Origin: Micromonospora sicca | GTDB lineage: Bacteria; Actinomycetota; Actinomycetes; Mycobacteriales; Micromonosporaceae | Length of the DNA stretch: 64,000 nt | Direction of reading: 5' to 3' | NCBI RefSeq assembly: GCF_003172935.1 | Contig: NZ_QGKS01000181.1 | Span: 1 to 64,000 of the forward strand | Shown: piece by piece, positions 11,228 to 31,097 of the stretch | Position numbering within the stretch: position 1 is the first letter of the stretch | Layout of the letters: each line of letters opens with the position of its first letter | Program-made: the position numbers and the translations under genes | The notes under the pieces: model-generated | The model's input: the letters and a program-made list of their open reading frames with translations, nothing else | Databases searched by the model: none | Told to the model about the DNA's origin: nothing

Positions 11228-11501
11228 GGTGGCGCTCCGTCGCATGGCGTTGTCGGTGGTGAACAGCGCACCCGCTACCGGTCGACTTCCGACCAGCCGG
11301 CCGCGGAGTGCACGGGCAGCGGCCGGCCCCGTCTGGGCGACCGAACTGCCGGTGACTCTGCCGCGAAGGGCGGCCAACGCCCCTGACGTGCCTCGGCGCA
11401 GTGCCGCCCCCAGTTGCAGCGCGGCACGGGCTGTTCCGTCGAGACCTGTGCTGCCGGCCCGTTGCCGGGCCTGAAGGCTCGCGCGGCGGCGGTGCCCGTT
11501 C

Positions 11502-11744
11502 TCACCGCGCTGCGGCTGCCGATGACGCCGTGTCCTTGTCCCGCAGCGCCGTGCCGCCGGCGATCGGCGACCTGCCCGCATCGGCGAACGCGCTGTCGCC
11601 CAGGGCCGGAAGATCACCGGCCGGCGCGTCACCTACGGCGCGGCGCCGGCTGGCCCGTACGACGGCCACCGCCGCCGCCACCGCTGTCAGGGACATGGCC
11701 GCCGCCTGCATCAACGGCACTCTTCTACTACGTCGACGCCTCAT
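11502..11744 (-). CDS. Small anchored protein, possibly frameshifted
   Basis: 80 residues: a basic start (MRRRRSRRVPLMQ), a short membrane helix (AAAMSLTAVAAAVAVVRA), then an Ala/Asp-rich tail that stops abruptly. AGAGGGA is about ten bases upstream of the ATG. Directly after its stop, the frame used by the desaturase stays open and reads as a plausible Ala/Gly-rich tail (GTARAALQLGAALRRGTSGA), so the true product may be longer with a frame slip near 11500. Function unknown. Confidence 0.4.
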   Translation of the reverse strand: MRRRRSRRVPLMQAAAMSLTAVAAAVAVVRASRRRAVGDAPAGDLPALGDSAFADAGRSPIAGGTALRDKDTASSAAAAR

Positions 11745-11971
11745 GCCGCACCATCCCTCTCACTTCGAGTCCAAGCTTGTTCTCATCGTGAAGACACCGC
11801 AGCGGCAGTGGGGGTTGTTCGGCGCATTCGACACGGTCGGGTTATTTCGCCCACGATGTGCGCCGTCGCGGAGAAGCCGGGCCAAGGCGGGTGGGAGGGG
11901 CTCGACGGCTCGGCCCGGGACGGGGGCTCCTAGGGGACTGCTCCGGGGCTGGTAGGGGCTACGCTTCTGCC

Positions 11972-13246
11972 GTGATTGGCGTGCAGGGGAGCGGGAGCGA
12001 CGAGCGGCTGCGTCGTATGGAGGCGGTCACCGACGCGACGCTCTCCCAGCTCGACGTCCACGACCTTCTCGAAGAACTCCTCGACCGGGTCCGGGAGGTG
12101 CTGCGGGTTGACACCGCCGCCATCCTGCTGGTGGATGTGCACGCCCAGCAGTTGGTGGCCACCGCGGCGAAGGGGCTGAAGGAAGGGGGCCGGCAAGGCT
12201 CTCGGATCTCCGTCGGCCAGGGTTTCGCCGGCCGGGTCGCACGGGAGAAGCAGCCCGTCAAACTGGACAACGTCACCGCCGCCGACGACCCGATCCTGTT
12301 CGGCAGAGGGGTCCGCTCGCTGTTGGGCGTGCCCATGTTGGCCGGTGGTGAGGTGATCGGCGTCTTGCATGTCGGCTGTCTGGAGCCGCACCGATTCACC
12401 AGCGAGGACGTGCAACTGCTGCAACTCGCCGCCGACCGGGCGAGCCTCGCCAGCCGCACCCGGGCCAGCAGCATCGACCGCACCGCTGCCCTGGCACTGC
12501 AACGCAGCCTGCTACCCACCCACCTACCCGACGCGCCCGGCGTGGACATGGCCGCCCGCTACGTGCCCGGCCACGACGCCGGCGTCGGCGGCGACTGGTA
12601 CGACGTGTTCACCCTCCCCTCCGGCTGGCTGGGCGTCGTCATCGGCGACGTGTCCGGACACGGACTGCGCTCGGCCGTCGTGATGGGGCGTCTCCGCAGC
12701 GCGCTGCGCGCCTACGCACTGGTCTGCGACGACCCGGCCGCCGCGCTCACGCTGCTCGACCGCAAGGTCCAGCATTTCGAGACCGGGAACCTCGCCACGG
12801 TCCTGTACGCGATGATCTCCCCGGACCGGGCCACCGTCCAGATGTCCCTCGCCGGGCACCTGCCACCCATCCTGGGCACACCGGGACAGCCGGCGGTCGC
12901 GCTGGACATTCCCGTCGACCTTCCATTGGGTATGGGCGCCCATCAACCGCCCCGCCGGCGCACCGAGGTCGCGTTCCCTCCCGGGGCGGCACTGATCTGC
13001 TACACCGACGGGCTCGTCGAACGCCGGGGGGAAGTCATCGACGTGGGCATCGAACGGCTCTGCTCAGCCGTCGAACCAGGTCCCGCCGAAACGGTCTGTG
13101 CCCACATCATGACCACAGTCGCCCCCGAACAGGCCACCGACGACATCGCCCTACTCGCCATCCGCGCAACCGACAAGAGTCAGTCACGCGAACCTGACGG
13201 GGCCCGGCGAGGCGGCGGGGTCACGCACCTCGGAGGCCGTGCATGA
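11972..13246 (+). CDS. GAF-SpoIIE serine phosphatase (PP2C-type)
   Basis: 424 residues. A GAF sensor domain covers about residues 20-170 (LSQLDVHDLLEELLDRVREV through VQLLQLAADRAS). A SpoIIE phosphatase domain follows, with GVGGDWYDVFTL and VIGDVSGHG supplying the metal-binding acidic residues, later AGHLPPIL and ICYTDGLVERRGE, and a final TDDIALLAIR. Such enzymes dephosphorylate anti-anti-sigma (STAS) proteins in partner-switching cascades. The GTG at 11972 is the first start after non-coding sequence. It overlaps the next gene by four bases (ATGA), so phosphatase and kinase-like regulator are made together. The target STAS protein is not encoded here in intact form. Confidence 0.9.
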   Translation: MIGVQGSGSDERLRRMEAVTDATLSQLDVHDLLEELLDRVREVLRVDTAAILLVDVHAQQLVATAAKGLKEGGRQGSRISVGQGFAGRVAREKQPVKLDNVTAADDPILFGRGVRSLLGVPMLAGGEVIGVLHVGCLEPHRFTSEDVQLLQLAADRASLASRTRASSIDRTAALALQRSLLPTHLPDAPGVDMAARYVPGHDAGVGGDWYDVFTLPSGWLGVVIGDVSGHGLRSAVVMGRLRSALRAYALVCDDPAAALTLLDRKVQHFETGNLATVLYAMISPDRATVQMSLAGHLPPILGTPGQPAVALDIPVDLPLGMGAHQPPRRRTEVAFPPGAALICYTDGLVERRGEVIDVGIERLCSAVEPGPAETVCAHIMTTVAPEQATDDIALLAIRATDKSQSREPDGARRGGGVTHLGGRA

Positions 13247-14184
13247 GCGTCACCGCCGCCACCAGGACGGACAGCTTTGTTCACCCGGCCCTCTTCTATG
13301 CCGACCGGGAGGAGTACCTGGCCGGCACGGTGCCGTTCATCCAGGCCGGCCTCGCCGCCGATGAGCCGGTCATGGTGGCCGTACCTGGGGACAACCTCGA
13401 TCACATCCGCGCCGCGCTCGGCAGCGACGCGGACCGGGTCCAGCTGCACGACATGAGCGTGGCCGGGCGCAACCCCGGACGAATCATTCCGGGCGTCCTG
13501 CTCGCCTTCGCCGCCGCCCACCCCGGGAAGCGGGTACGCATCATCGGGGAGCCCATCTGGGCCGGCCGCACCGCTACCGAATACCCCGCCTGCGCCCAGC
13601 ACGAGGCCCTGATCAACGCGGCGTTCGCCGGCCGGCAGGCCACCATCCTCTGTCCCTACGACACCAGTCGCCTGGACCCGAGCTGGCTCGACGACGCCCA
13701 CCGCACCCATCCGCTCCTGCAGACGGGCAGCGCGGTGTGGGACAGTCCGCACTACGCCGACCCGTTCGCGGTGGCCGCCGGGTTCAACCTGCCGCTGCCG
13801 GACCCGCCCGCCCACGCGACCGTCGTCACCATCGACCTACCTGCCCTCCCGGCCATCCGCCGGCTCGTCACCGCCGAGGCGGTCGCGGCCGGCCTGCCGC
13901 CGGACCGAGTCGCCGACCTGACCCTGGCGGTCAACGAACTGGCGGCGAACACGGTCAGACACACCAACGCCGGCGGCGCCCTCGCGGTCTGGGCCGACCC
14001 CACGCGGCTGATCTGCCAGCTCACCGACACCGGGCACATCACGAACCCGCTCGCCGGCCGGATTCCGGTGCCACCGCAGCAGCCCGGCAGCCGAGGGCTC
14101 GTCCTGGTCAACCAGCTCTGCGATCTCGTGCGCGTCCACACCAGGCCCGGCGCCACCACGATCCGCCTTCACATGCACCGCTGA
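13243..14184 (+). CDS. MEDS sensor / HATPase anti-sigma regulatory protein
   Basis: 313 residues. The N-terminal ~170 residues form a MEDS (DcmR-like sensory) domain: HPALFYADREEYLAGTVPFI, RVRIIGEPIWAGR and LCPYDTSRLDP. The C-terminal domain is a GHKL ATPase of the anti-sigma/Ser-kinase type, with N box VNELAANTVRHTNAGG and a G-rich lid GSRGLVLVNQLCD. The pair is expected to phosphorylate a STAS partner or bind a sigma factor in response to an unknown signal. It is translationally coupled to the SpoIIE phosphatase, giving a complete switch minus its antagonist. Function of the MEDS domain is inferred. Confidence 0.85.
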   Translation: MSVTAATRTDSFVHPALFYADREEYLAGTVPFIQAGLAADEPVMVAVPGDNLDHIRAALGSDADRVQLHDMSVAGRNPGRIIPGVLLAFAAAHPGKRVRIIGEPIWAGRTATEYPACAQHEALINAAFAGRQATILCPYDTSRLDPSWLDDAHRTHPLLQTGSAVWDSPHYADPFAVAAGFNLPLPDPPAHATVVTIDLPALPAIRRLVTAEAVAAGLPPDRVADLTLAVNELAANTVRHTNAGGALAVWADPTRLICQLTDTGHITNPLAGRIPVPPQQPGSRGLVLVNQLCDLVRVHTRPGATTIRLHMHR

Positions 14185-14243
14185 CGCTCGTACCGCCGGT
14201 GCGGCCGGCCACACCCGGCCGCCGCACGCGTACCGGACGGCAG

Positions 14244-14270
14244 CTGGGCCCGGGCGAGGCCCGGGCCCAG
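14244..14270. terminator. Strong GC hairpin between converging genes
   Basis: A perfect twelve-base stem (CTGGGCCCGGGC / GCCCGGGCCCAG) with a GAG loop, placed between the MEDS-HATPase gene and the DHFR-like gene, which converge. Likely a bidirectional terminator. Confidence 0.7.
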
Positions 14271-14286
14271 ATCCAGCCGTTCCTCC

Positions 14287-14838
14287 CTACTCGGTGACCG
14301 GCTGGTAGGACGCGATGATCACGCCGCTCTTCATGACCCTGCTGTCGGCCAGGCGGAGCGTCGTCCGCGCCTGGCTCAGCGGCGCGGTGACCGAGGGGCC
14401 GCCCTGGAAGACGGGGTGGATCCAGAACCGGACCTCGTCCACCAGCCCCGCCTTGAGCAGGGCGTGGGTGACCGCGCCGTAGCCGTACATCAGGATGTCC
14501 TTGCCGTTCTGGGCCTTCAGCTTGGTGACCTCCTCGACCAGGTCACCCTGCAGTACCTCGGTGTTGTTCCACTCCGGGTCGGTCAGGGTGGTCGAGGCGA
14601 CGTACTTCTTGACGTTGTTGAAGTAGGCCGCGCCGGTGGTCGGGTCGCTCTCGTCCATCTTCGGCCAGGCGGCGGCGAAGCCGTCGTACGTGCGACGGCC
14701 CATCAGCAGCGCGTCGGCCGCGTCCGTCTGCTCGCCGGCGAAGGCCATCGCCTCCTCGTCGAAGAACGGCGCGGTCCACGCCGGGTTCTCGATGACGCCG
14801 TCGAGGGTGATGTAGGTCGAGTTGATGATCCTGCGCAT
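14287..14838 (-). CDS. Dihydrofolate reductase family protein (RibD C-terminal fold)
   Basis: 183 residues. It starts MRRIINSTYITLDGVIENPA, and LLMGRRTYDGFAAAWPKMD, ILMYGYGAVTHALL and RFWIHPVFQGGPSV follow in the order of the RibD C-terminal/DHFR-like family. These are NADPH-dependent reductases of mostly unknown substrate, distinct from FolA. AGGAG lies nine bases before the ATG. No partner gene; it converges with the MEDS gene across a hairpin. Confidence 0.85.
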   Translation of the reverse strand: MRRIINSTYITLDGVIENPAWTAPFFDEEAMAFAGEQTDAADALLMGRRTYDGFAAAWPKMDESDPTTGAAYFNNVKKYVASTTLTDPEWNNTEVLQGDLVEEVTKLKAQNGKDILMYGYGAVTHALLKAGLVDEVRFWIHPVFQGGPSVTAPLSQARTTLRLADSRVMKSGVIIASYQPVTE

Positions 14839-14925
14839 GGCGTTCGCTCCTGGATGTCCGGGTCGGTCTTGGTGACATCCGGAACGTTGCCAGGGCCCAC
14901 TTACGATTCGCTTCAGGTGCGCTTC

Positions 14926-15358
14926 TCAAGGTCGCCCGCGGCCACTGCCTCGCCGCTGCTCCCCCTGCTCGCCGCGCCGGCGGCGATCCTCCCGGACGGC
15001 GCTTCTGACACCTTGCAGCGTCGCGCCCGGTGCGAAGATCAGCGCATACCAGCGGTCCAGTGTGGCGTGCAGTTCGGTGAGCGTGGCGGTCGCCCGTTGG
15101 GTCTGCTCCCGGGAGATCCGCAGCTGCTCGCGGGCGGCCTGCGCCTCCGCCTCCAGCTCCGACACCCGCAGCCGCATCGGTTGCACCGGGGTCAGCGCCG
15201 CGTCGGTGAGCATGTCCGCCGCCTCGGCCTTGAACTTGCCGCGTTGTGACCACGGTGGCGATGGCGGCGACGCCACTGGTGCCGCCCAGCACCCCGAGCA
15301 CGGACAGCAGGACCTGGACCCACTGCGGGGCGCTGGTGGCGGCGAGCGACGGAGTCAT
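14926..15358 (-). pseudogene. Membrane-anchored coiled-coil protein broken by one frameshift
   Basis: Reading begins MTPSLAATSAPQWVQVLLSV with a membrane helix (VLGGTSGVAAIATVV) in one frame. Near 15243-15250 the coding signal moves to another frame and continues QRGKFKAEAADMLTDAAL, then an alpha-helical coiled-coil (SELEAEAQAAREQLRISREQ) to the stop at 14926. A single missing base in the ACAACGCGG region would rejoin the two halves into about 143 residues. The start overlaps the upstream membrane protein's stop (ATGA). Either a recent mutation or a sequence error. Function unknown. Confidence 0.65.
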
Positions 15359-15795
15359 CGGGAGCCGCCGATCCGGCTCTCGAGGCGTGCCTTCTCGATG
15401 CCGCGGACGAGCCGGCGGAGGTCGAGCAGGATCTCCACCGCCCGCCACCATGCACCGACCGCCACCGCGATGATGAACGACGCCGCCGCGACCGCCAGGC
15501 GGCCGGACATCACCGCCAGCGCAACGGCATACATGCCGGCGATGGTGCCGAGCATGAGCATCGACGCGAGTTCGATGCCGAGGCCGGTGGAGATCCTTCC
15601 CGGCCAGGAAAGCCCGACCAGTCCGGCGAGGCCGACCGCGATGAGCCCGAGTTCCCAGCCGATCCGGATCGGGGCCGGCATGGCCATCTCCACAGAGGGC
15701 GGTCGTACGTCGAGCGTGATCAACAGGGCACCGCACACGGGTGCGGTGGCCAGGACCGCGTTTTCAAAAGGTCGCCGGTTACGCAGAATCCGCAT
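15355..15795 (-). CDS. Four-helix integral membrane protein of unknown function
   Basis: 146 residues from the ATG at 15795 (MRILRNRRPFENAVLATAPV). Four hydrophobic segments are visible (around VLATAPVCGALLITL, LGLIAVGLAGLVGL, LASMLMLGTIAGMYAVALAV and AAASFIIAVAVGAWW), followed by a charged tail. Longer versions start at 15819 (ATG) or 15882, but their extra residues are low-quality; a GGAG lies 14-16 bases upstream of 15795, which is not decisive. It is coupled by ATGA overlap to the frameshifted coiled-coil gene, so the two probably act together. I do not recognise the family. Confidence 0.65.
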   Translation of the reverse strand: MRILRNRRPFENAVLATAPVCGALLITLDVRPPSVEMAMPAPIRIGWELGLIAVGLAGLVGLSWPGRISTGLGIELASMLMLGTIAGMYAVALAVMSGRLAVAAASFIIAVAVGAWWRAVEILLDLRRLVRGIEKARLESRIGGSR

Positions 15796-16139
15796 GCTCG
15801 GACACCCCAACTCCTGCATGTTGTGCTGCGGTACCCCGGAGAAGGTGCCGTCGGCTGCGGAGCCCGCGACCACACTGCCCACACTGAGGGACCTACTGCG
15901 GGGGATGGGTGTGACGACTCGCGTCGTTGGTGGCCGACACCTTCAGTCATACCACCGGCCCGCCCCGTCACCAACTGATGAGATCCGACATTTTCCCAGC
16001 TCAGCGCCCTTGTGTCGGCGCCTGGTGGGGGCCGACGCGGTCCGGCGGGCAACCGATGCCGGTGGGTTCTCCCGACGGGCTGGACAAGCCGGTGGATCGA
16101 GAACTGACATCCCACAACGTGTCGGATAGTTTACGGAAC
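15796..16139. other. Divergent intergenic region
   Basis: About 344 bases between two divergent hypothetical genes. It must hold both promoters. I see no clear -10/-35 pair, repeat or operator. The upstream in-frame parts of both flanking genes run into it, so start choices may shrink the gap. Confidence 0.4.
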
Positions 16140-16703
16140 GTGACGGCTGAGGATGGTGCCAACCCGGGGCTCGACGCGCCCGTGCGCGACGAGATCAGTG
16201 ATGCCTGGATGCTGGCGGTGGCCGATGCGGCGCGGCAGCTCGGTCGGGAGCGCGTGCACGTGTGGCTGGCCTCCGGGCAGGTCGCCGACGTGCGGCGTAC
16301 GGGGCCGGCGGACCAGCCGGTGGCGTGGTTCGCGCCGACCAGAGCGGTCGCTGCGCAGACGGCCGACGGGCGGGACTGCGAGGCGCAGGTGGAGACCGCG
16401 GTGGTGTTGGGCCTGGCCCGATGGTCGCCGGGAAACCTGCCGCCGCAGGTCTCCTCCTGGTTCGTGCGGTTGCATCCCATGGGCCTGGCGCTGCACGACC
16501 CGAGCGGGCAGGTCTTCGCCCGCGGCAACGTCGAGGTGTCCACCGAGTGGACCTCCGCCGCGCTGGTCGCTGGCGTGCTCGCGGTCTACGGCGTCGCCGA
16601 TCCCGGCACCGGACCCGAAGCCTCTGCGCCGGTGCCACAGCGACTCATCCATGCCCGGCGGGCGGGGCTGATCGCGGCCGCCTACGTCCCGCTCCACTAC
16701 TGA
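16140..16703 (+). CDS. Hypothetical protein (187 aa)
   Basis: Soluble protein with regular alpha/beta character: DAWMLAVADAARQLGRERVH, WFAPTRAVAAQT, ETAVVLGLARWSPGNLPPQV and VSSWFVRLHPMGLALHDPSG. No membrane segment, signal peptide or recognised catalytic motif. The GTG at 16140 follows a weak ACGGA site; an ATG further upstream (16054) remains open but gives atypical residues. It converges with the zinc ADH gene. Function unknown. Confidence 0.55.
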   Translation: MTAEDGANPGLDAPVRDEISDAWMLAVADAARQLGRERVHVWLASGQVADVRRTGPADQPVAWFAPTRAVAAQTADGRDCEAQVETAVVLGLARWSPGNLPPQVSSWFVRLHPMGLALHDPSGQVFARGNVEVSTEWTSAALVAGVLAVYGVADPGTGPEASAPVPQRLIHARRAGLIAAAYVPLHY

Positions 16704-16740
16704 CCCGAGCAGCCGCCGTGACTCGCTGGGACGCGCCAGC

Positions 16741-17790
16741 TCATCGCGGGTGGATCAGGCACATTCCGCCGGGAGCGGGCGCGTCCATGGCCGCCAACGC
16801 GTCGGGCACCTCGTCGAGGCCGATGGTCCGGGTGACCAGTTCGGCGGGGCGCAGTACGCCCGCGGTGACCAGCCGGAGCAGCTCCGGATAGGCGTGCGCG
16901 GCCATGCCGTGACTGCCCCGCAGCTCCAGCTCGAACGCGATCACGAGCTCCATCGGCAGGGCCGGGCGGCCCTGGGCGGCGGGAAGGAGTCCGACCTGCA
17001 CATGCCGTCCGCGCCGCCGCAGGCTCTCGATCGAGGCGGTGCAGGTGCCGTGACTGCCCAACGCGTCGAGCGACAGGTGGGCGCCACCGCCGGTCGCCTC
17101 CCGGACGGCCGCGGCCACGGCGCCGGGGGCGGTGAGGGCACTGCCGTCCAGGCAGACGGTGGCCCCGCAACTCCTCGCCAGCTCGAGCGCGCCGGGGGCG
17201 ACGTCGACCGCCACCACCTGGGCGCCGCACGCCGCCGCGATCATCACCGCGGACAGCCCCACGCCGCCGCAGCCGTGCACCGCCACCCACTCGCCCGCGG
17301 CGACCCGCCCCTGGCTGACCACGGCCCGGAACGCCGTGGCGAAGCGGCAGCCGAGCGCCGCCGCGGCCGGGTGGTCCAGCTCGTCGGGGAGCCGGACCAG
17401 GTTGACCTCGGCGTGCTGCACCGCCACGTAGTCGGCGAACGAGCCCCAGTGGGTGAAGCCGGGCTGCGTCTGCCGCTCGCAGACCTGCTGATCGCCCGCG
17501 AAGCACGCGGGGCACTGCCCACAGGCGCAGACGAAGGGCGCGGTGACCCGGTCGCCGGGCCGCCAGCCGCGTACGCCGGCCCCGACCGCCGCGACGACAC
17601 CCGCGAACTCGTGGCCGGGGACGTGTGGCGGGCGGATGTCGGGATCGTGTCCCTGCCAGCCGTGCCAGTCGCTGCGGCACAACCCGGTCGCCTCGACCCG
17701 GATGACGGCGCCCCCGGCCGGCGGCACCGGGTCCGGGACGTCACGGACCTCGGGTCGGGCACCGAACTCGTCGAAGATCACCGCACGCAT
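16741..17790 (-). CDS. Zinc-dependent alcohol dehydrogenase (MDR superfamily)
   Basis: 349 residues. Catalytic-zinc ligands appear in ATGLCRSDWHGW (Cys) and PGHEFAGVV (His-Glu). The structural-zinc lobe has CACGQCPACFAGDQQVC. A Rossmann motif (VHGCGGVGLSAVMIAAACG) binds NAD(P). The profile is that of a medium-chain ADH acting on alcohols or aldehydes; the substrate cannot be read. The ATG at 17790 is chosen because CAGGA lies eight bases upstream; 21 extra residues upstream do not match the family. No operon partner; it converges with the hypothetical gene. Confidence 0.9.
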   Translation of the reverse strand: MRAVIFDEFGARPEVRDVPDPVPPAGGAVIRVEATGLCRSDWHGWQGHDPDIRPPHVPGHEFAGVVAAVGAGVRGWRPGDRVTAPFVCACGQCPACFAGDQQVCERQTQPGFTHWGSFADYVAVQHAEVNLVRLPDELDHPAAAALGCRFATAFRAVVSQGRVAAGEWVAVHGCGGVGLSAVMIAAACGAQVVAVDVAPGALELARSCGATVCLDGSALTAPGAVAAAVREATGGGAHLSLDALGSHGTCTASIESLRRRGRHVQVGLLPAAQGRPALPMELVIAFELELRGSHGMAAHAYPELLRLVTAGVLRPAELVTRTIGLDEVPDALAAMDAPAPGGMCLIHPR

Positions 17791-22785: not shown

Positions 22786-24306
22786 ATGAAGGACGCGGAA
22801 ACCATGGTCCTGCCCCGGCTCGGGCCGGCGGCGGTCAGTGTCGAGGACCCCTGGGGAGAAGACCAGGGCGCCGACCCGGTCGGTCCGGCGACGGACCCCC
22901 AGCGGTGGCGGGTCGCCGCCTGGCTGGTGCCGGCACTGCTGATGGGCCTGCTCGGCGTCGTCCGGGCCGGCGCACCCGGACTGCGGACGGAAGAGCTCGC
23001 CACCTGGGGCCGGGCCGCGTCGTCCTGGCGGGACAACTGGTCGATGCTCGGCTCGGACGATGTCGCCGTCGGGCCGTACCACCTGCTGATGCGCGCGTGG
23101 GCGGCGGGCTTCGGCACCTCCGATCTCGCCCTGCGCGTACCCTCCATCCTGGCCATGACCGCGGCCGCGGCGCTCGTCGGGGCGCTGGCGGCCCGACTGT
23201 TCGCGCCGGGGACCGGTGTCCTCGCCGGGGTGGTCTTCGCGCTGCTGCCGACGTCGGCGCGGTACGCGCAGGAGGCCCAGCCGTACGCATTGACCCTGCT
23301 CGCCGCGGTGCTCGCCACGTCCCTCCTCGTGGCGGCCATCGACCGGCCGAGGCACTGGCGCTTCGCCGGCTACGCCGGCGCGGTGGTGGTCCTGGGCCTG
23401 TGCAACGTCGTCGCGCTGCTGCTGCTCGTCGGCCACGGCTGGGCCGTGTTCGCCTTCCGGCGCACGGTCGCTGTCCGATGGCTGGCCGCCGCGTCCGTGG
23501 GCGCGCTGCCCGTGGCCGCCCTGCTCTGGTTCGCCACGCGGCACGGCGCGCAGATCGCCCCGGCCTCGCACCCGAGCCTGACCGCGCTGGCCGCGACCCC
23601 CCGGGAACTGTTCGGCGTCACCGCACTGGGGGCCGTGCTGCTCGCGCTCGCGTTGTTCAGCCTCCCGCTGCGGCACTCCGCTGCCATCTACACCGCCTGG
23701 GCGGTGGTGCCGCCGCTCGTGCTGCTGCTCATCGCGCAGGCGACGCCGTTCTGGCGGCCGCAGTACCTGCTCTTCACGCTCCCGGCGTGGGCGACGCTCG
23801 GCGCGGTCGCCCTCGCCCGGGCGGGCACCCGATGGTCCGTGGGTGTGCTGGCGGCGGTCGCCCTGATCGTCGCGCCGGCCCAGTTGGCCGTGCGGGAACC
23901 CGATGGACATCAGCAGGCGACCCGTCAGCTCGCGGAGATCATCCAACCTCGGCTGCAACCCGGTGACGGCGTCGTCTACGGCTCGTCGGATCCGGGAGGT
24001 GGCGGGGTCGGCCGGAACGTGGTGGCGCACTACCTCCCCGCCGACCGCCGGCCGAAGGACCTGCTCGCCACGGCTCCACACCGCGTCGACGGTCGGCTCC
24101 CGGTGTCCGAATGCGCCGACGTCGCCAGGTGCCTGCACGGCGCGCGGCGACTGTGGGTGGTCCGCCTCGGCGAGCAGCCGGACCCGGTGCACGGCATCGG
24201 CGGCGCGAAGGAGCAGCTGCTCCGAAAGACGTATCAGGTGGCGCAGGTCTGGCGACCCACGGGGCTCACGCTGGCCCTGCTGGTGGACGAGCGGACCGAC
24301 CTCTGA
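22786..24306 (+). CDS. Membrane glycosyltransferase (GT39/ArnT-like, GT-C fold)
   Basis: 506 residues with about ten membrane helices. The first periplasmic loop, APGLRTEELATWGRAASSW, carries the acidic residues expected of GT-C enzymes (usually DE; here TEE), and DVAVGPYHLLMRAWA and ARYAQEAQPYALTLL match the Dol-P-sugar-dependent mannosyltransferase-like family. The C-terminal ~130 residues form an extracytoplasmic domain. These enzymes move lipid-linked sugars onto acceptors outside the membrane. The ATG at 22786 is preferred over the one at 22771, which has its ribosome site directly abutting. It is followed 127 bases later by the GT2 gene, suggesting a shared locus. Confidence 0.8.
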   Translation: MKDAETMVLPRLGPAAVSVEDPWGEDQGADPVGPATDPQRWRVAAWLVPALLMGLLGVVRAGAPGLRTEELATWGRAASSWRDNWSMLGSDDVAVGPYHLLMRAWAAGFGTSDLALRVPSILAMTAAAALVGALAARLFAPGTGVLAGVVFALLPTSARYAQEAQPYALTLLAAVLATSLLVAAIDRPRHWRFAGYAGAVVVLGLCNVVALLLLVGHGWAVFAFRRTVAVRWLAAASVGALPVAALLWFATRHGAQIAPASHPSLTALAATPRELFGVTALGAVLLALALFSLPLRHSAAIYTAWAVVPPLVLLLIAQATPFWRPQYLLFTLPAWATLGAVALARAGTRWSVGVLAAVALIVAPAQLAVREPDGHQQATRQLAEIIQPRLQPGDGVVYGSSDPGGGGVGRNVVAHYLPADRRPKDLLATAPHRVDGRLPVSECADVARCLHGARRLWVVRLGEQPDPVHGIGGAKEQLLRKTYQVAQVWRPTGLTLALLVDERTDL

Positions 24307-24433
24307 CCGGTCGCCGCACCCGGGATCGGATGGCGTGGTCCGCTGCGGTGATTGGGGCAACTCGCACTGTTTGACCGTATTGCACGTTTAGGCTCAGCCA
24401 CAGTCGAGTCCGTGGCGAGCAGGAGTCGGACCC

Positions 24434-26350
24434 TTGGGGGGCAATGTGGGCGTCGTCGCCGATAGGCGCCTGTCTTCAGCCACAAAGGACGGAACCTCCG
24501 CCGGCGGCACCCCGGTCGACGACGCGGCCCAGCCGCCGTCCGGTCAACGCCCCGATCGTCGCCGGCTGAACATCAGGGCTCGCCTGGCGTACGCGAGATG
24601 CGGCGCCATCGCCGGCCCCCTGGTCGCGCCGCGGCACCCGCGCGCGGCGGTCGAGTTCCGCCACGCCGTCTCGCCCGCGGCGCGGGTGGTCCTGACGCTG
24701 CTCGTCCTGGTCAACAGCGCGGCCGGGCTGCTGCTCGTCGGGTGGCTGCTGCTTCCCGAGCACGTACCCGGAGCGGGCGTGATCGGGCTCGGCGGCTGGC
24801 AGACGGTGGCGGCCCGGCTCGGCTTCTGCGTGGTCGTCGGCGTCGAGTTGATCCGCCTCGCGCAGAACGTGGTCGTCTGGGTGTTCGCCTTCAACGCCAA
24901 GGACCCGGTCCCGGTCGATCCTCCGGTCGGCCTGCGGGTGGCCCTGCTCACCACGATCGTGCCCAGCAAGGAACCGATCGACGTCGTGGAGCGGACCCTG
25001 CGGCGGTGGAAGCAGATCGTCTACTGCGGTCGGGTCGACGTCTGGATCCTCGACGAGGGGGACGACCCCGCGGTGCGGGAGATGGCCGCGCGGCTCGGGG
25101 TGCGGCACTTCAGCCGGAAGGGCCGACCGGAGTACAACCAGCCGAACGGTGAGTTCCGCGCCAGGACGAAGTCGGGCAACCACAACGCCTGGCGGGCCGA
25201 ACACGAGCACCACTACGACGTGGTCGCCAACGTCGACCCCGACCACGTGCCGCTGCCGAACTTCCTCGAACGCACGCTCGGCTACTTCCGCGACCCGGAC
25301 GTGGCCTTCGTGGTGACCCCGCAGGTGTACGGCAACATGCACCAGAACCTGGTCGCGCACGGCGCCTCGGTCCAGCAGTACCTCTACAACGGCCTCATCG
25401 CGCGCGGCGGAAACGGTCTGGACGCGCCCCTGCTCACCGGCACCGGCCACCTCTACCGGCCATCCGCGTGGCGGACCATCGGCGGCTACCAGGACTCGAT
25501 CATCGAAGACCACCTGACCAGCATCCGGATCCATGCCGCCGTCAACCCGGAGACGGGCAACCAGTGGAAGGGCGTCTACACCCCGGACGTGGTGGCCATC
25601 GGGGAAGGCCCGACCTCGTGGGCCGACTACTTCAACCAGCAGAAGCGGTGGGCCGCCGGCATCTGCGAGATCCTGGTCCGCCGTGACCTGCGCGCGCCGC
25701 GCGAACTGCCGTCCCGACGCCGCTGGCAGTACCGCCTGCTCCAGTTCTACTACCCGAGCGTGGCGGTCAGCCTGCTGCTCGGCAACTTCGCCACCGCCAT
25801 GTCGCTGCTCACCGGGGTGAGTGCGGCCCAGCTCGACGTCACCGTGTGGTCGGTGCTGTGGGGCTCGACCATCGCCACCTGGTTCGTGCTGTGGCTCTGG
25901 CTCCGCCGGTTCAACATCGCCCCGCACGAGCGGGAAGAGATCGGCTTGGTCGGCATGGCGCTGGCGCTGTTCGCCGGTCCGATCTACGTGGCCGCCGGTG
26001 TCGGCGCGCTGCTGCGGCGCAAGCTCGGGTTCGTGGTGACGGCCAAGGGCAAGCTGCGTACCACCGAGTCGCTCGGCACCTTCCGTCTGCACTTCTGCTG
26101 GGCGGCCTTCGCCGCCGGCGTGCTCGGCGCGAGTTTCCTGCTGGACAACGACTTCACCCTGCTCCGGGTGTGGCCGGTCCTGACCCTCCTGATGGGGCTT
26201 GGTCCGCCGCTGATCGCGCTCGCGTCGAGTGTCGCGGCCCGCCGCGAGCAGCAGCACGAGGAGAAGGCCGAGCCCGCCGCTCGGACCGGGAGAGAAGAAC
26301 GTCACCCGCCGAAGTCACGGGTGGCGGCTGACGGGGGTTTGCCATGGTGA
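24434..26350 (+). CDS. Cellulose-synthase-like GT2 polysaccharide synthase
   Basis: 638 residues. Two N-terminal membrane helices, then a GT2 catalytic domain: first Asp in ILDEGDD near residue 207, VDPDH near 266, IIEDH near 355 and QQKRW near 402 (the D, DxD, TED-like and QxxRW motifs of processive synthases). Several C-terminal helices form the channel. It should polymerise a beta-linked glycan from a nucleotide sugar and extrude it. The start is TTG: AGGAG lies exactly eight bases before it, better than the GTG twelve bases on. No PilZ domain is visible, so c-di-GMP control is not indicated. Its tail (EERHPPKSRVAA) is repeated downstream, marking a duplication. Confidence 0.85.
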   Translation: MGGNVGVVADRRLSSATKDGTSAGGTPVDDAAQPPSGQRPDRRRLNIRARLAYARCGAIAGPLVAPRHPRAAVEFRHAVSPAARVVLTLLVLVNSAAGLLLVGWLLLPEHVPGAGVIGLGGWQTVAARLGFCVVVGVELIRLAQNVVVWVFAFNAKDPVPVDPPVGLRVALLTTIVPSKEPIDVVERTLRRWKQIVYCGRVDVWILDEGDDPAVREMAARLGVRHFSRKGRPEYNQPNGEFRARTKSGNHNAWRAEHEHHYDVVANVDPDHVPLPNFLERTLGYFRDPDVAFVVTPQVYGNMHQNLVAHGASVQQYLYNGLIARGGNGLDAPLLTGTGHLYRPSAWRTIGGYQDSIIEDHLTSIRIHAAVNPETGNQWKGVYTPDVVAIGEGPTSWADYFNQQKRWAAGICEILVRRDLRAPRELPSRRRWQYRLLQFYYPSVAVSLLLGNFATAMSLLTGVSAAQLDVTVWSVLWGSTIATWFVLWLWLRRFNIAPHEREEIGLVGMALALFAGPIYVAAGVGALLRRKLGFVVTAKGKLRTTESLGTFRLHFCWAAFAAGVLGASFLLDNDFTLLRVWPVLTLLMGLGPPLIALASSVAARREQQHEEKAEPAARTGREERHPPKSRVAADGGLPW

Positions 26351-27498
26351 GGGTGACCGTTCCGCGGGTCCTGCTGATGCTGAGCGGAGGCGTGCTGGTG
26401 CTGACCTACGGCTTCACCTTGGCGCCCGTCACCAGCTCCGGGGGCCGGGGGGACGCCCGGTCCGACCGGGCGGCGACGGCCGAAGCACAGGAGCCGGCCC
26501 AACCCGGCGCGTCGCCCCGACCGGCTCGAGAACTCTTCCCGCCGGCCGGAAAGACGTTCATCGGTGTCATGACCGAGAAGGGCCCACACGACTTCACCGC
26601 GACGAACATGTTCACGGCGGCCGCCAAGCGTCAGCCACAGGCCATGCTCTTCACCTCGGGGTGGGCGTCCGACACCTTCGACCGGACTCTCTTCGACCAG
26701 ATCAAGGGTCGCGGCATGCTACCGATGCTGGCCTGGGAACCGTGGGACTACCGGCCGGGCGAAGCGGCCCACAGGAAGGGGCTCCCGACCCGCGAGGTCG
26801 ACAGGTTACGGAACGAGCAACCCCGGTACCGGTTGTCCCACATAACGCGCGGCGACTTCGACAGCTACCTGCGGTCCTGGGCCGACGGGATCAAGTCACT
26901 CGGCTACCCGGTGGCCATCCGGTTCGGCCACGAGATGAACGGCTACTGGTACCCGTGGTGCGAGACGGTCAACGGCAACCGGCCGGGCGACTACGTCAAG
27001 GCGTGGCGGCACATACATGACCTGTTCCGGGCCGCCGGGGCCACCAACGTCACCTGGGTATGGAGCCCGAACAACAGATGGGACGACTCGACCCCGAAAC
27101 TCTCCACGCTCTACCCGGGCGATGACTACGTCGACTGGGTGGGCATCTCGGGCTACTACAGCACGGTGTTCACCTCGGAATACCGGTCCTTCGACCTGAT
27201 CTTCAACCAAACCATCGAGGATATCCGCGTCTTCACCAGCAAACCGCTGGTCATCACCGAGACCGGTGCGTCCGACGTCAACGGGCGCAAGGCCGAGTGG
27301 ATCGAGCAGACCTTCCAGCTGCTGTCCAGACACAAGGACATCATCGGATTCATCTGGTTCGAGGTGGACAAGGAGGTGGACTGGCGCATCGCCAGCTCAC
27401 CGGCCGCGGCAAGGGCCTTCGCCAAGGCGGTCGCCGACCCTCGCTACCAGTTCACCTGGTCGCCGGACATGCTCCTGCGCACGGAACTGGAGGATTAG
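26344..27498 (+). CDS. Membrane-anchored GH26 glycoside hydrolase, copy 1
   Basis: 384 residues. An uncleaved-looking N-terminal anchor (VPRVLLMLSGGVLVLTYGF) is followed by a Pro/Ala-rich linker to about residue 65 and a GH26-type TIM barrel. The acid/base Glu197 lies in FGHEMNGYWYPW and the nucleophile Glu306 in LVITETGASD. The family contains beta-mannanases and beta-1,3/1,4-glucanases or xylanases. The start overlaps the GT2 stop by seven bases. Anchored outside the membrane beside the synthase, it probably trims or processes the exported polysaccharide. Closest relative in view is the tandem copy. Confidence 0.88.
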   Translation: MVRVTVPRVLLMLSGGVLVLTYGFTLAPVTSSGGRGDARSDRAATAEAQEPAQPGASPRPARELFPPAGKTFIGVMTEKGPHDFTATNMFTAAAKRQPQAMLFTSGWASDTFDRTLFDQIKGRGMLPMLAWEPWDYRPGEAAHRKGLPTREVDRLRNEQPRYRLSHITRGDFDSYLRSWADGIKSLGYPVAIRFGHEMNGYWYPWCETVNGNRPGDYVKAWRHIHDLFRAAGATNVTWVWSPNNRWDDSTPKLSTLYPGDDYVDWVGISGYYSTVFTSEYRSFDLIFNQTIEDIRVFTSKPLVITETGASDVNGRKAEWIEQTFQLLSRHKDIIGFIWFEVDKEVDWRIASSPAAARAFAKAVADPRYQFTWSPDMLLRTELED

Positions 27499-27630
27499 AT
27501 GTTCCGTGCCCTGCCTGCCGACCAGCATCCGTCCGCGGATGACGACCTGGCCGAGCCGGTCGCTCGCGCCGACAGCGAGGAACGCCACCCGCCGAAGTCA
27601 CGGGTGGCGGCTGAGGGGGTTCTGCAATGA
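27499..27630 (+). CDS. 43-codon residual frame from duplication of the synthase tail
   Basis: Starts ATG immediately after the copy-1 stop and reads MFRALPADQHPSADDDLAEP, then the copied GT2 tail EERHPPKSRVAAEGVLQ. Its TGA overlaps the copy-2 ATG (ATGA), exactly as the synthase stop overlaps copy 1. It probably serves only to couple translation of copy 2; a functional peptide is not supported. Confidence 0.35.
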   Translation: MFRALPADQHPSADDDLAEPVARADSEERHPPKSRVAAEGVLQ

Positions 27631-28808
27631 TGAGGTTGACCGTTCCGCGGCTCCTGATGGTGCTGATCGGCGCGCTGCTGCTGGCCTACGCGTTCGCCAT
27701 CGCACCGATCGCCACGTCCGGGGGCCGGGAGGACGCGCCGTCCGACCGGCTTGCGAAGGCCGAGCCGGGTGCGGTGGTGACGGCCGAAGCCAATGCGGTG
27801 ACAACGGCTGCACCGGGCGCCCCGCCCCCACCGGCTGAGGAATTCTTCCCGCCGGCCGGCAAGGCGTTCATCGGTGTGATGACCGAGAAGGGCCCGCACG
27901 ATTTCACTGCGACGAACATGTTCACGGCCGCCGCGAGACACCGGCCGCAGGTGATGCTCTTCAGCTCGGGGTGGGCATCCGACACCTTCGACCGGACGCT
28001 CTTCGACCGGATCCGTGACCGGGACATGCTGCCGATGCTGGGCTGGGAACCATGGGACTACAAGGTGGACCAGGCGGCCCGCAAGGAGAGGCTGCCGGCC
28101 CGCGAGGTCGACAAGGTCCGGTCCAACCAACCTGCCTACCGGTTGTCCCGCATCGCACGCGGGGACTTCGACAGCTACCTGCGCAAATGGGCGGACGGGA
28201 TCAAGTCGCTCGGCTACCCGGTGGCCATCCGGTTCGGGCACGAGATGAACGGCGACTGGTATCCGTGGTCCGAGGCGACCAACGCCAACCGGCCGGGCGA
28301 CTACGTCAAGGCGTGGCGCCATGTCCACGACGTGTTCGGAGCCGCCGGGGTCACCAACGTGATCTGGGTGTGGAGCCCGAATGCCAGATGGAGCACGACG
28401 ACCGCGAATCTCGCCGAGCTCTACCCCGGCGACGACTACGTCGACTGGGTGGGCGCCTCGGGCTACTACGGCACGGGGGTCTTCTCGAACTACCGGTCCT
28501 TCGACGAGATCTTCAAGCCCACCATCACCGAGATCCGGACCTTCACCAGGAAACCGATGGTCATCACCGAGACCGGCGCCTCCGACGGCAACGGGCGCAA
28601 GGCCGAATGGATCAAGCAGACCTTCCAGCTGCTGTCCAGACACAAGGACATCATCGGACTCATCTGGTTCGAGGTGGACAAGGAGCTGGACTGGCGCATC
28701 GGGAGCTCCCCGGCCGCGGCCAAGGCCTTCGCCGAGGCGGTCGCCGACGCTCGCTACCAGGTCACCTGGTCGCCGAAGATGCTCCCGCGTACCGAGCTCG
28801 TCGGTTAG
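27627..28808 (+). CDS. Membrane-anchored GH26 glycoside hydrolase, copy 2
   Basis: 393 residues. Same architecture as copy 1: N-terminal anchor (MVLIGALLLAYAFAIAPI), a longer Ala/Pro/Thr linker, then the GH26 barrel beginning AFIGVMTEKGPHDF. The acid/base Glu is in FGHEMNGDWYPW and the nucleophile in MVITETGASDGNG, so both catalytic residues are kept. Differences cluster in the linker and surface loops, including Ser for Cys after WYPW and an extra Gly in YYGTGVF. It probably has a related but not identical job. It converges with the TetR gene only nine bases away. Confidence 0.88.
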   Translation: MMRLTVPRLLMVLIGALLLAYAFAIAPIATSGGREDAPSDRLAKAEPGAVVTAEANAVTTAAPGAPPPPAEEFFPPAGKAFIGVMTEKGPHDFTATNMFTAAARHRPQVMLFSSGWASDTFDRTLFDRIRDRDMLPMLGWEPWDYKVDQAARKERLPAREVDKVRSNQPAYRLSRIARGDFDSYLRKWADGIKSLGYPVAIRFGHEMNGDWYPWSEATNANRPGDYVKAWRHVHDVFGAAGVTNVIWVWSPNARWSTTTANLAELYPGDDYVDWVGASGYYGTGVFSNYRSFDEIFKPTITEIRTFTRKPMVITETGASDGNGRKAEWIKQTFQLLSRHKDIIGLIWFEVDKELDWRIGSSPAAAKAFAEAVADARYQVTWSPKMLPRTELVG

Positions 28809-28817
28809 GCAGCCGGA

Positions 28818-29390
28818 TCAGGCTGGCGGGCGCAGGCCGTCGAGGGCGACGCCGAGCACCCGGTCACGCTGGTCCGGCTCCGGGAACTGGGCCATCGTGA
28901 GGCCGCTGACCAGCCGGACCACGTCGTCGAAGCTGATGTCGTCGCGTACCACTCCGGCGGCCTGGGCGCGACGCATCAGCGGCTCGCCCGCGGTGTAGAT
29001 CTCCGTCCGGCAGCTGCGGAAGACCTCGGAGTCGTGCAGCAACTCCTCGGCCAGTGCCCGCTTCGTGGCGACGTACGCGACGAAACGCCGCAACCAGGCG
29101 ACGAGGGCGTCCCACGCGGGCAGGTCGGCCAGCTCTGCGGCGGACCGGCTGAGCGCCCGGACCTCCTCGACGTAGACGGCCTCGAACAGCTCCCGCCGGC
29201 TGGGGAAGTTCCGGTAAAGGGTGCCGATGCCGACGCCGGCCCGTCGGGCCACCTCCTCCAGCGAGGCCGACGCGCCGGCCTCCGCGAACGTCTCCCGGGC
29301 CGCCCCGATCAGCGACTCGTAGTTGCGCCGGGCGTCGGCCCGTTTGGGCCGCCGTGCGAAGACGTCGGGCAGCTGCTCCGCGCTGGTCAT
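28818..29390 (-). CDS. TetR family transcriptional repressor
   Basis: 190 residues. N-terminal TetR helix-turn-helix: AARETFAEAGASASLEEVAR then RAGVGIGTLYRNFPSRRELF. The C-terminal ligand domain (SETR/TetR_C-like) contains FVAYVATKRALAEELLHDSE and a DDVVRLVSGLTMAQFP ending. ATG at 29390 is preferred; GAGG lies 11 bases upstream, whereas the GTG at 29402 abuts its site. It is divergent from an exporter gene with three palindromes between them, the classic arrangement for autorepression and drug-induced export. Confidence 0.9.
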   Translation of the reverse strand: MTSAEQLPDVFARRPKRADARRNYESLIGAARETFAEAGASASLEEVARRAGVGIGTLYRNFPSRRELFEAVYVEEVRALSRSAAELADLPAWDALVAWLRRFVAYVATKRALAEELLHDSEVFRSCRTEIYTAGEPLMRRAQAAGVVRDDISFDDVVRLVSGLTMAQFPEPDQRDRVLGVALDGLRPPA

Positions 29391-29418
29391 GACGTGCGTC
29401 ACCTCGCCGTAGTTGCAT

Positions 29419-29484
29419 CCGGAGGCATGCCTCCGGTAGCTTAGCGGAGGAGCCCCTCCGGAAAGTCCGGAGCCATGCCTCCGG
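29419..29484. promoter_or_regulatory. Three 18-base palindromic operators
   Basis: 29419-29436 is a perfect palindrome (CCGGAGGCATGCCTCCGG). 29444-29461 (GCGGAGGAGCCCCTCCGG) and 29467-29484 (CCGGAGCCATGCCTCCGG) are imperfect copies. Centre spacings are 25 and 23 bases. TAGCTTA follows two of them. They lie between the divergent TetR and exporter genes and are the probable TetR binding sites. Confidence 0.8.
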
Positions 29485-29642
29485 ATAGCTTACCCCGATC
29501 CTCCCACGGATCCGGCGCAGCGGTGGCCGGCGCCGTCGACCAAGCCGCGGCACGCCGGAACCGACCACCCCGAGCCCGCCCGCGCGACGCCTGATTCGTG
29601 GTGGCCAGCCTCCTTTCCCCGTACGCAGATGGAGCTTTCTCC

Positions 29643-31097
29643 GTGACAGAGACCGTTCGGCGCGGCTCGCGCCGGCTCACCTTCTTCGTCCTGGCGGCCG
29701 GCGCCGGGTTCTTCGCGATGCTCCAGTCGCTGATCACCCCGGTGCTGCCGACCATCCAGCACGACCTGCACACCTCCCAGAACACCGTCACCTGGGTGCT
29801 GACCGCCTACCTGCTGTCCGCGTCGATCTTCACGCCGATCCTCGGCCGGGTCGGCGACATGGTCGGCAAGGAGCGGATGCTGGTCGTCTCCCTCGCCGCG
29901 CTCGCGCTCGGCTGCCTGCTCGCCGCCGTCGCGCCGAGCATCGGCGTGCTCATCGTCGCCCGGGTCATCCAAGGCATCGGCGGGGCCGTCTTCCCGCTCT
30001 CGTTCGGGATCATCCGCGACGAGTTCCCCGCCGCCCGGGTGGCCTCCGCCGTCGCCGCCATCTCGGCGATCGTCGCGGCCGGCGGTGGTCTGGGCGTCGT
30101 CCTCGCCGGCCCGATCGTCACCACCCTCGACTACCGGTGGCTGTTCTGGATCCCGATGGTCGTCGTCGGGTTGACCGCCCTCGCCGCGCACCTGTTCGTC
30201 CCCGAGTCGCCGCTCCGCACCCCCGGCCGGATCGACTGGCGGGCCACCGTCCTGCTCTCCGGCTGGCTGGTCGCGTTGCTGCTGCCGATCAGCAAGGGGT
30301 CGGCCTGGGGCTGGACCTCCGGCCGGGTGCTCGGCCTGCTGGCCCTCGCCGCGGTGCTGCTGGCCGGCTGGCTGGTCGCCGAGATCCGCTCCACCAACCC
30401 GCTGATCGACATGCGGATGATGCGCCTGCCCGGGGTCTGGACGACCAACCTGGTGGCCCTGCTGTACGGCGCTTCGATGTTCTCCGTCTACGCGTTCCTG
30501 CCGCAGTTCGTGCAGACCCCGATCGTCGCCGGCTACGGCTTCGGCGCCAGCATCACCCAGGCGGGCCTGCTGATGCTGCCCATGCTGGTCGGGATGTTCG
30601 TCGCCGGCATCCTCGCCGGTCGGCTGGCGTCGCGGTTCAGCGCCAAGGCGCAACTCGCCACCGGCGCCGCCTTCAACGTACTCGCCTCGGCGATGCTGAC
30701 CGTCGCGCACGACACCCGCTGGGAGATCGGTGTCGCCGGTGGCCTCGTGGGCCTCGGCATCGGGCTGGCGTTCGCGTCGATGGCCAACCTGATCGTCGGG
30801 AACGTACCGGCCCGGCAGACGGGCGCCGCCACCGGCATGAACGCCAACATCCGCACCATCGGCGGCGCGATCGGCGCCGCCGTGGTCAGCGGCGTGATCA
30901 CCGCCCACCCGCAGGTGAACGGCCTGCCCCGGGAGGCCGGCTTCACGATGGGCTTTCTGGTCCTCACCGGTCTCGCCCTGGCCGCCGCGCTCGCGGCCCT
31001 GGCCGTCCCGTCCCCGCGGCGCGCGGCGGCCGGCCGACGTCCGACCCCCGCGACGGAGCCGGTCGGAGAGCTGGTGACCGTACCCGCGGGGCGCTGA
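29643..31097 (+). CDS. DHA2-type MFS drug exporter (14-TM)
   Basis: 484 residues, about 14 membrane helices. N-terminal FFAMLQSLITPVLPTIQHDL, motif A-like GRVGDMVGKERMLV, ARVIQGIGGAVFPLSFGIIR (motif C region, normally drug/H+ antiporter) and a late GLGIGLAFASMANLIVGNVP. The GTG at 29643 has GGAG eight bases upstream; an in-frame start 45 bases earlier gives non-family residues. Divergent from a TetR gene with shared operators, so expression is probably substrate-induced. Substrate unknown. A hairpin follows its stop. Confidence 0.9.
   Translation: MTETVRRGSRRLTFFVLAAGAGFFAMLQSLITPVLPTIQHDLHTSQNTVTWVLTAYLLSASIFTPILGRVGDMVGKERMLVVSLAALALGCLLAAVAPSIGVLIVARVIQGIGGAVFPLSFGIIRDEFPAARVASAVAAISAIVAAGGGLGVVLAGPIVTTLDYRWLFWIPMVVVGLTALAAHLFVPESPLRTPGRIDWRATVLLSGWLVALLLPISKGSAWGWTSGRVLGLLALAAVLLAGWLVAEIRSTNPLIDMRMMRLPGVWTTNLVALLYGASMFSVYAFLPQFVQTPIVAGYGFGASITQAGLLMLPMLVGMFVAGILAGRLASRFSAKAQLATGAAFNVLASAMLTVAHDTRWEIGVAGGLVGLGIGLAFASMANLIVGNVPARQTGAATGMNANIRTIGGAIGAAVVSGVITAHPQVNGLPREAGFTMGFLVLTGLALAAALAALAVPSPRRAAAGRRPTPATEPVGELVTVPAGR

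Follow-up and report, generated by a model that had tools for sequence, protein, structure and literature searches.

A synthase related to CslA and coupled to GH26 enzymes in Micromonospora sicca suggests a novel cell-surface polymer system

What does a processive polysaccharide synthase make, and with which partners does it act, when it is encoded next to two enzymes of glycoside hydrolase family 26 (GH26)? This question is raised by four genes located in a 64,000-nucleotide stretch of the 7.88 Mb genome of Micromonospora sicca (NCBI RefSeq assembly GCF_003172935.1, contig NZ_QGKS01000181.1, positions 1 to 64,000; the window, hereafter). The original prediction, made from the sequence alone, placed at 22786-28808 a GT-C membrane transferase, a processive synthase of glycosyltransferase family 2 (GT2) and two GH26 enzymes, all in one direction, and Pfam searches back each of these family assignments:

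22786..24306, + strand: GT-C membrane transferase (Pfam PMT_2, E-value 1e-06)
24434..26350, + strand: processive GT2 synthase (Pfam Glyco_trans_2_3, E-value 3.9e-15)
26344..27498, + strand: GH26a (Pfam Glyco_hydro_26, E-value 4.2e-17)
27627..28808, + strand: GH26b, tandem paralogue of GH26a (Pfam Glyco_hydro_26, E-value 9.5e-20)

The four genes indeed share a strand, but the overlaps that were described along with the shared direction come down to a single one among the three junctions, 7 bp between the GT2 and GH26a genes; the gaps at the two other junctions are 127 and 128 bp. The first codon of the GT2 gene is ambiguous (TTG at 24434 or GTG at 24446). The analysis described here suggests a previously undescribed system for a polymer of the cell surface. 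With a probability of roughly 0.57, we interpret the cassette as a dedicated surface system in which a CslA-type synthase acts together with tethered GH26 enzymes that trim or edit a beta-glucan, with the GT-C protein as an accessory.

Among proteins of solved structure, the closest to the GT2 are the BcsA cellulose synthases (profile E-value 6.5e-39). The top Foldseek match of its AlphaFold model (predicted local distance difference test score, pLDDT, 85.8) is also BcsA (4p00), with a template modelling score (TM-score) of 0.50-0.56 and a high overall root-mean-square deviation. Thirteen Micromonospora records match the window GT2 at 77-87% identity; beyond its own clade, the closest sequence relatives have neighboring genes for a GH6 enzyme and GlxA, as does the Streptomyces cellulose synthase CslA-GlxA-CslZ. 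In that system, CslA-GlxA makes cellulose in vitro, GlxA is anchored in the membrane, and truncation of GlxA cuts the activity of CslA (PMC11022532); CslZ is a tethered glucanase that, together with LpmP, is needed for glycan exposure (PMC9040799).

The phylogenetic tree of the synthases was built by quick search without bootstrap and includes 88 of 131 rows, after the GlxA rows were thinned to every other one, and 11 near-duplicates as well as six rows from the divergent triads considered below were removed; the bacterial mixed-linkage glucan synthases RiGT2 and BgsA lie outside it. The outgroup, which is long-branched, consists of three GH26-partnered GT2s of divergent triads and one more sequence, and 13 rows in total, those three included, do not enter the counts. 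A single branch parts 49 GH26-partnered from 26 GlxA-partnered synthases, with support in the Shimodaira-Hasegawa-like approximate likelihood ratio test of 98 on the GlxA side and 91 on the GH26 side. The window GT2 lies outside the CslA clade, across the branch with the support of 98, and its clade is, in this topology, the sister group of actinobacterial CslA.

The partner genes were compared in the 80 named relatives, which are the best of at least 572 confirmed loci: GH26 is found in 32 (one of the matches being weak), GlxA in 41, GH6 only in one and neither in six, and no locus has both. None of the 32 named GH26 loci contains GH6, the matches to which adjoin CslA-clade synthases only, and there is no GlxA family match in the genome that carries the window. 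GH26 loci are represented in Micromonospora, Dactylosporangium, Kitasatospora, Streptomyces, Frankia, Streptosporangiaceae, Modestobacter, Blastococcus and one metagenome-assembled genome (MAG) of Chloroflexota. Within the genus, we surveyed 151 genomes, the first-pass scans scoring up to 12 GH26, 8 GT2 and 10 GT-C candidates per genome; a GT2 at least 67% identical was taken as window-type and a GH26 at least 55% identical as close. The window-type GT2 is present in 41 of these genomes, and the identical 41 carry a close GH26, adjacent to it, which is an association beyond chance; genome G062 has two window-type loci, and in G124 the two genes are located at contig ends. GlxA is present in three of the 151 genomes, exactly those that encode a CslA-type GT2 and lack the window-type one, a non-overlap with the 41 that is not significant alone. 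Thus, comparative genomics supports the prediction of a polysaccharide system that combines a synthase with hydrolases.

The two groups of synthases also differ by a fixed residue next to the catalytic base. In the window GT2, the D, DPD and QQKRW motifs are present, and the TED position is occupied by the following feature:

25502..25510, + strand: IED triplet, the catalytic-base motif of the GT2, which replaces the TED of CslA and BcsA

IED is found in all 51 core GH26-partnered GT2 rows, in all six Geodermatophilaceae or Actinoplanes rows with a GH26 match and in all seven partnerless rows, and TED in all 54 rows of the GlxA clade (52 with GlxA, one with GH6 only and one at a contig end). 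Both Chloroflexota GT2 rows have VED, as do plant CslA and CslC at this position, and one degenerate synthase has LEG. The replacement of TED by IED was rejected as a marker of a mixed-linkage product given that RiGT2 keeps TED, and we know of no sequence signature of a mixed-linkage (1,3 + 1,4) product for this clade.

Genes in the fetched loci were called by our own codon-usage script, so that their starts are approximate. Among the 49 loci with a same-strand downstream GH26, the frames of the two genes overlap in 42, are 0-30 bp apart in six and are distant in one, and the GT2-GH26 gene order is held across several families. This count was made after removal of four loci that duplicate other genomes (L130, L132, L133 and L141; also removed from the tree and the flank comparison and kept in the row counts of residues, motifs and partners). 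Outside the count are five Geodermatophilaceae loci with GH26 upstream of the synthase: in one Modestobacter locus (L157) the two genes share a strand, and in the second Modestobacter locus and all three Blastococcus loci they lie on opposite strands. Single linkage placed 27 loci in seven neighborhoods, with 18 chained into one, a result that is only suggestive of a cassette that may move.

This coupling bears on the possibility that the GH26 enzymes cut outside beta-glucan for uptake, with the GT2 either unrelated or making the stock that is recycled. Such a role would fit the degradative nature of Lic26A, the closest solved relative of these enzymes, as well as the variation in the GH26 copy number and the presence, in 7 of 53 loci, of genes for a GH3 enzyme and an ATP-binding cassette (ABC) sugar transporter directly upstream of the GT-C gene (the Micromonospora-type loci L023, at 11281-16810, L024, L025, L134, L136, L140 and L150; in L023, about 0.2 kb separates GH3 from GT-C, with both genes on one strand). 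One more locus, L138, has the permeases only, and another ABC transporter is encoded within a few kb in L112 and L113. The GH3-ABC and permease-only loci rule out the notion that uptake and breakdown genes are absent beside the cassette, and these species may take up the cut glucan, either as food or to recycle a polymer of their own. None of the remaining loci, the window included, has GH3 or ABC genes within the compared flanks of about 6-9 kb on each side. Given also that the GT2 is found in exactly those genomes of the genus that have the close GH26, that the two frames overlap in most loci and their order is kept across families, and that the GH26 enzymes are predicted to be anchored rather than released, a system of degradation appears most improbable.

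The two GH26 enzymes themselves retain the catalytic pair of glutamates, namely, the acid/base E197 (codon at 26932) and the nucleophile E306 (codon at 27259) in GH26a, and E206 (28242) and E315 (28569), respectively, in GH26b. Among 95 GH26 rows, which take in other triads, short gene calls and a few duplicates, the acid/base glutamate is present in 94 and the nucleophile in 95. The AlphaFold model of GH26a (pLDDT 87.6) consists of a helix at residues 6-25, a disordered linker of low confidence and a confident barrel, and its fold is closest to that of the Clostridium thermocellum lichenase Lic26A (TM-score 0.89 by target length). The profile match to Lic26A (E-value 2.7e-64) extends over positions 85-357 of 374 and 73% of the profile. 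The best mannanase profiles reach E-values of 1.8e-17 (a protein labelled YdhT) and 2.5e-17, with 35-55% of the profile covered. Because the lichenase is nearer than the mannanases, beta-glucan is likelier here than mannan. Two further GH26 proteins, one from another triad and one from the Chloroflexota MAG, likewise have Lic26A as their closest solved relative, so the match indicates the side of the family to which these enzymes belong rather than lichenan as the substrate.

A mannose- or glucose-based polymer had been proposed originally; the glucose half of this proposal becomes the likelier one, and mannan as the product is weakened. The version in which the GT2 makes mannan or glucomannan and GH26 is a mannanase could draw on the weak resemblance of the GT-C protein to a mannosyltransferase, on the predominance of mannanases among GH26 enzymes (PMC13390465) and on the synthesis of mannan by plant CslA (PMC8306620). 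Nevertheless, with the mannanase E-values 47 orders of magnitude weaker than that for Lic26A, the lower profile coverage and a fold similarity to mannanases of 0.47-0.58, we consider it very unlikely.

Harder to set aside is an ordinary actinobacterial cellulose system, in which GH26 would do the job of CslZ on plain beta-1,4-glucan and no new polymer would be made. The sister relationship of the GT2 to CslA, the position of BcsA as its nearest match in the PDB, the cellulose made by CslA-GlxA (PMC11022532), and the catalytic glutamates and predicted tethering of GH26, which suit a CslZ-like role, are all compatible with this possibility. However, GlxA is missing from each of the 32 GH26 loci as well as from the window's genome, IED uniformly replaces TED, and the enzyme to which GH26 is closest cleaves mixed-linkage glucan. 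On balance, plain cellulose seems unlikely.

How the GH26 enzymes would be held near the synthase is suggested by their N-termini. Both GH26a and GH26b start with a hydrophobic segment and lack a lipobox, and are predicted, from the sequence and, for GH26a, also from the model, to be anchored in the membrane by an N-terminal helix. In pairs with a mean catalytic-domain identity of 0.55-0.58, identity in this segment is 0.36-0.39 and in the adjacent linker 0.22; in other triads, the segment is 0.38 identical at a catalytic identity of 0.65. The same test gave 0.27 for the segment of the CslZ control and 0.25 for the GlxA anchor, with pairs that are not independent and with many GH6 rows skipped where the gene caller missed the hydrophobic start. 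Both halves of the anchor motif are present in 45 of 63 core GH26 rows, and some of the other 18 resemble gene-start errors. Conservation above both controls is suggestive of a helix that engages a partner. It was not accepted as proving that GH26 is a synthase subunit, considering that the known partner GlxA does no better in this test than CslZ, which makes the test a weak one.

Still, it is conceivable, if doubtful, that GH26 is a true synthase subunit, the conserved helix of which docks on the GT2 in the manner of the BcsB and GlxA anchors, such that the active site edits the emerging chain and sets the 1,3/1,4 pattern or the length. If so, the cassette would encode a synthase-hydrolase holoenzyme making a glucan that no single synthase specifies and, to our knowledge, the first mixed-linkage glucan of actinobacteria.

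For the interpretation that we favor, a dedicated surface system with tethered GH26, comparison shows the protein families, the retained catalytic residues, the joint occurrence and coupled order of the genes, the change of partner relative to the sister clade and the IED/TED split; from these we infer the following scheme of product, sugar donor, physical complex, editing and GT-C function. The GT2 would use a nucleotide sugar, most likely uridine diphosphate glucose, to polymerise a beta-linked glucan, and would push the chain out through its own membrane channel. GH26, co-expressed with the GT2 from overlapping frames and held outside by its N-terminal membrane helix, would cut, edit or release the glucan beside the chain exit, filling the place that is shared in Streptomyces by GlxA, the membrane-bound partner, and CslZ, the tethered hydrolase. 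Given the lichenase-like character of GH26, the chain would have mixed 1,3/1,4 linkages or be a 1,4-glucan, rather than a mannan. The GT-C protein may decorate the polymer, or the anchor of the polymer, from a polyprenyl-phosphate sugar.

Several observations weigh against this scheme. The sister status of the GH26 and GlxA clades depends on the long-branched outgroup, and the closeness of the GT2 to CslA fits plain cellulose equally well. The next fold matches of GH26a after Lic26A are GH26 xylanases (0.66 and 0.69), ahead of the mannanases, and the other GH26 of this genome also has Lic26A as its best solved match, so that resemblance to the lichenase is not peculiar to the cassette. The published anchored partner, GlxA, failed to exceed the CslZ control in the anchor test. 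The weak GH26 case among the named loci, L158, scores 96 bits, and seven loci of the IED clade (L121, L122, L154, L155, L156, L159 and L169), some of them near contig ends, have no neighboring GH26 or GlxA in the stretch covered. In L117 (7061-9268, genome G187), a GT2 of this clade that lacks the DxD, ED and RW residues and looks dead or repurposed still has an adjacent GH26. The GH3 and ABC transporter genes in 7 of the 53 loci belong to the same side of the argument. With regard to taxonomy, L121, L122, L154, L155 and L159 come from genomes of the Actinoplanes group, the first two being placed by the tree.

The two GH26 genes of the window lie in a tandem duplication that reaches into the synthase gene:

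26266..27488, + strand: duplication unit copy 1, which starts within the GT2 3' end and covers GH26a
27549..28798, + strand: duplication unit copy 2, in which GH26b is preceded by a remnant of the 3' end of GT2

The copies are 84% identical over 1218 aligned bases. In the tree of 39 GH26 rows, GH26a groups with copies from three other species and GH26b with the copy of another species, which implies that the array is older than these species; a recent duplication is ruled out by these shared paralogue groups, the 84% DNA identity notwithstanding. There is one GH26 copy per locus in 28 genomes, two in two genomes and three in 11, so the "pair" originally described, correct for the window, represents one configuration of a tandem array that varies from one to three copies. 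Between L104 and the window, the GT2 is 93-94% identical but GH26 only 70-73%; we read the greater divergence of GH26 between species, seen at the sequence level, as birth and loss of paralogues with the function probably retained.

The GT-C protein scores 107.9 bits against the NCBIfam MT1671-like mannosyltransferase family, the cut-off of which is 900, and so is not a member. It has eight hydrophobic segments and, after the first membrane helix, an acidic EE pair; GT-C transferases that use polyprenyl-phosphate sugars have an acidic pair in the first outer loop. Over 54 aligned rows, the pair is DE in 23, EE in 15, AE in eight, GE in three and NE in one, with gaps in four. GT-C adjoins the GT2 in 40 of the 41 genomes, both genes lying at contig ends in the other (G079); given that GT-C relatives are common in the genus (112 of 151 genomes), only the adjacency is informative. 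No GT-C gene was found beside the GT2 in the Kitasatospora, Dactylosporangium, Streptomyces and Frankia loci, and the one near the GT2 in Bailinhaonella is encoded on the opposite strand. Alignment to the window GT-C breaks off at residue 344-403 in nine of 23 loci examined. An essential part for GT-C is therefore ruled out for the clade, and the protein appears to be an accessory that is dispensable across it. In five loci (L023, L024, L025, L106 and L134), the match stops near residue 345, with the C-terminal domain apparently lost or replaced and GT2 and GH26 intact.

Divergent triads of GT2, GH26 and GT-C genes in other orders are found elsewhere in the genus and fall into three types (L090/L092/L099; L091/L093/L096/L098/L107; and L094/L095/L108, with the GT2 of the last type supported by Pfam for L094 and L095 only), implying that the three functions became linked, or stayed so, on more than one occasion. 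One such triad (L090, 3480-13722, genome G008) lies beside type VII secretion genes coding for EccE and an AAA protein with a beta-helix. The Chloroflexota MAG locus (L163, 1985-11174) contains two GT2 genes among three GH26-like genes, one of which lacks the acid/base glutamate, and one of the GT2s is fused to a second long membrane part that has only a sub-threshold match to YfhO. In L116 (10491-13547), L119 (10202-12544) and L120 (10886-13297), from genomes of the same family, a single protein that combines HSP70/MreB-like and Kelch domains is encoded directly after GH26.

Downstream of the cassette, the genes for a TetR regulator and a major facilitator superfamily transporter (28818-31097) were considered as further members and ruled out: they are kept, at 94-97%, beside L104 only among 53 loci. 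Just upstream of the TetR gene, a 20-nt inverted repeat with 95% complementarity (arms 29417-29436 and 29467-29486) is a possible operator.

The surface glucans of actinobacteria have so far been studied via Streptomyces CslA-GlxA, and the sister synthase described here has a wholly different partner. Its clade occurs in 41 of the 151 genomes surveyed in the genus, roughly one in four, as well as in Kitasatospora, Dactylosporangium, Streptomyces, Frankia and Geodermatophilaceae. The clean split of partners and the single fixed residue by the catalytic base amount to a natural experiment on the role of the partner and the setting of linkage, which can be put to a direct test, since type strains of soil bacteria available from collections are among the named carriers.

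Among the results listed by searches of the open-licence literature, judged by title and opening of the abstract, we found no description of a GT2-GH26 pair or of a CslA-type synthase with GH26, and the known systems resemble the cassette each in part. It shares with BcsA-BcsB-BcsZ the GT2 fold, the DxD, ED, QxxRW and gating-loop motifs, and a hydrolase that adjoins the synthase. It differs in that no PilZ domain is found (the GT2 has no Pfam match to PilZ, and the C-terminus of its model is formed by helices and a disordered tail, without a beta-barrel), BcsB is not among the four genes, and the hydrolase is GH26, BcsZ being a GH8 enzyme. Lic26A, or endoglucanase H, is the nearest solved sequence and fold and has the same catalytic pair of glutamates. 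It is a secreted cellulosomal enzyme of degradation, whereas the GH26 proteins of the cassette have a predicted anchor at the N-terminus and are encoded after a synthase. WpsE of Actinoplanes missouriensis, reported in 2026, is a GH26 in an exopolysaccharide cluster of a related actinomycete, but that cluster is predicted to be Wzx/Wzy-dependent rather than synthase-dependent (PMC13390465). RiGT2 of Romboutsia ilealis and BgsA of Sinorhizobium meliloti are bacterial mixed-linkage glucan synthases that form their own groups, described in a paper the main text of which does not mention GH26 (PMC10374906). They have the D, D, D and QxxRW motifs in common with the cassette GT2, the GH26 of which resembles a lichenase; unlike the cassette GT2, RiGT2 has a PilZ domain and TED.

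The closest parallel is with CslA-GlxA-CslZ of Streptomyces: the synthases belong to sister clades (40-48% identity in five CslA-type rows), BcsB is absent, a hydrolase gene is near that of the synthase, and the host is a filamentous actinobacterium. The lack of PilZ and BcsB had been thought to set the cassette apart from cellulose systems; PilZ indeed was not found, but actinobacterial CslA, as described in PMC11022532, also lacks BcsB and has only a partial PilZ. The cassette has IED for TED, tandem copies of GH26 and, in Micromonospora and near genera, an added GT-C. The true difference from the cellulose systems is GH26 in the place where those have GlxA and GH6.

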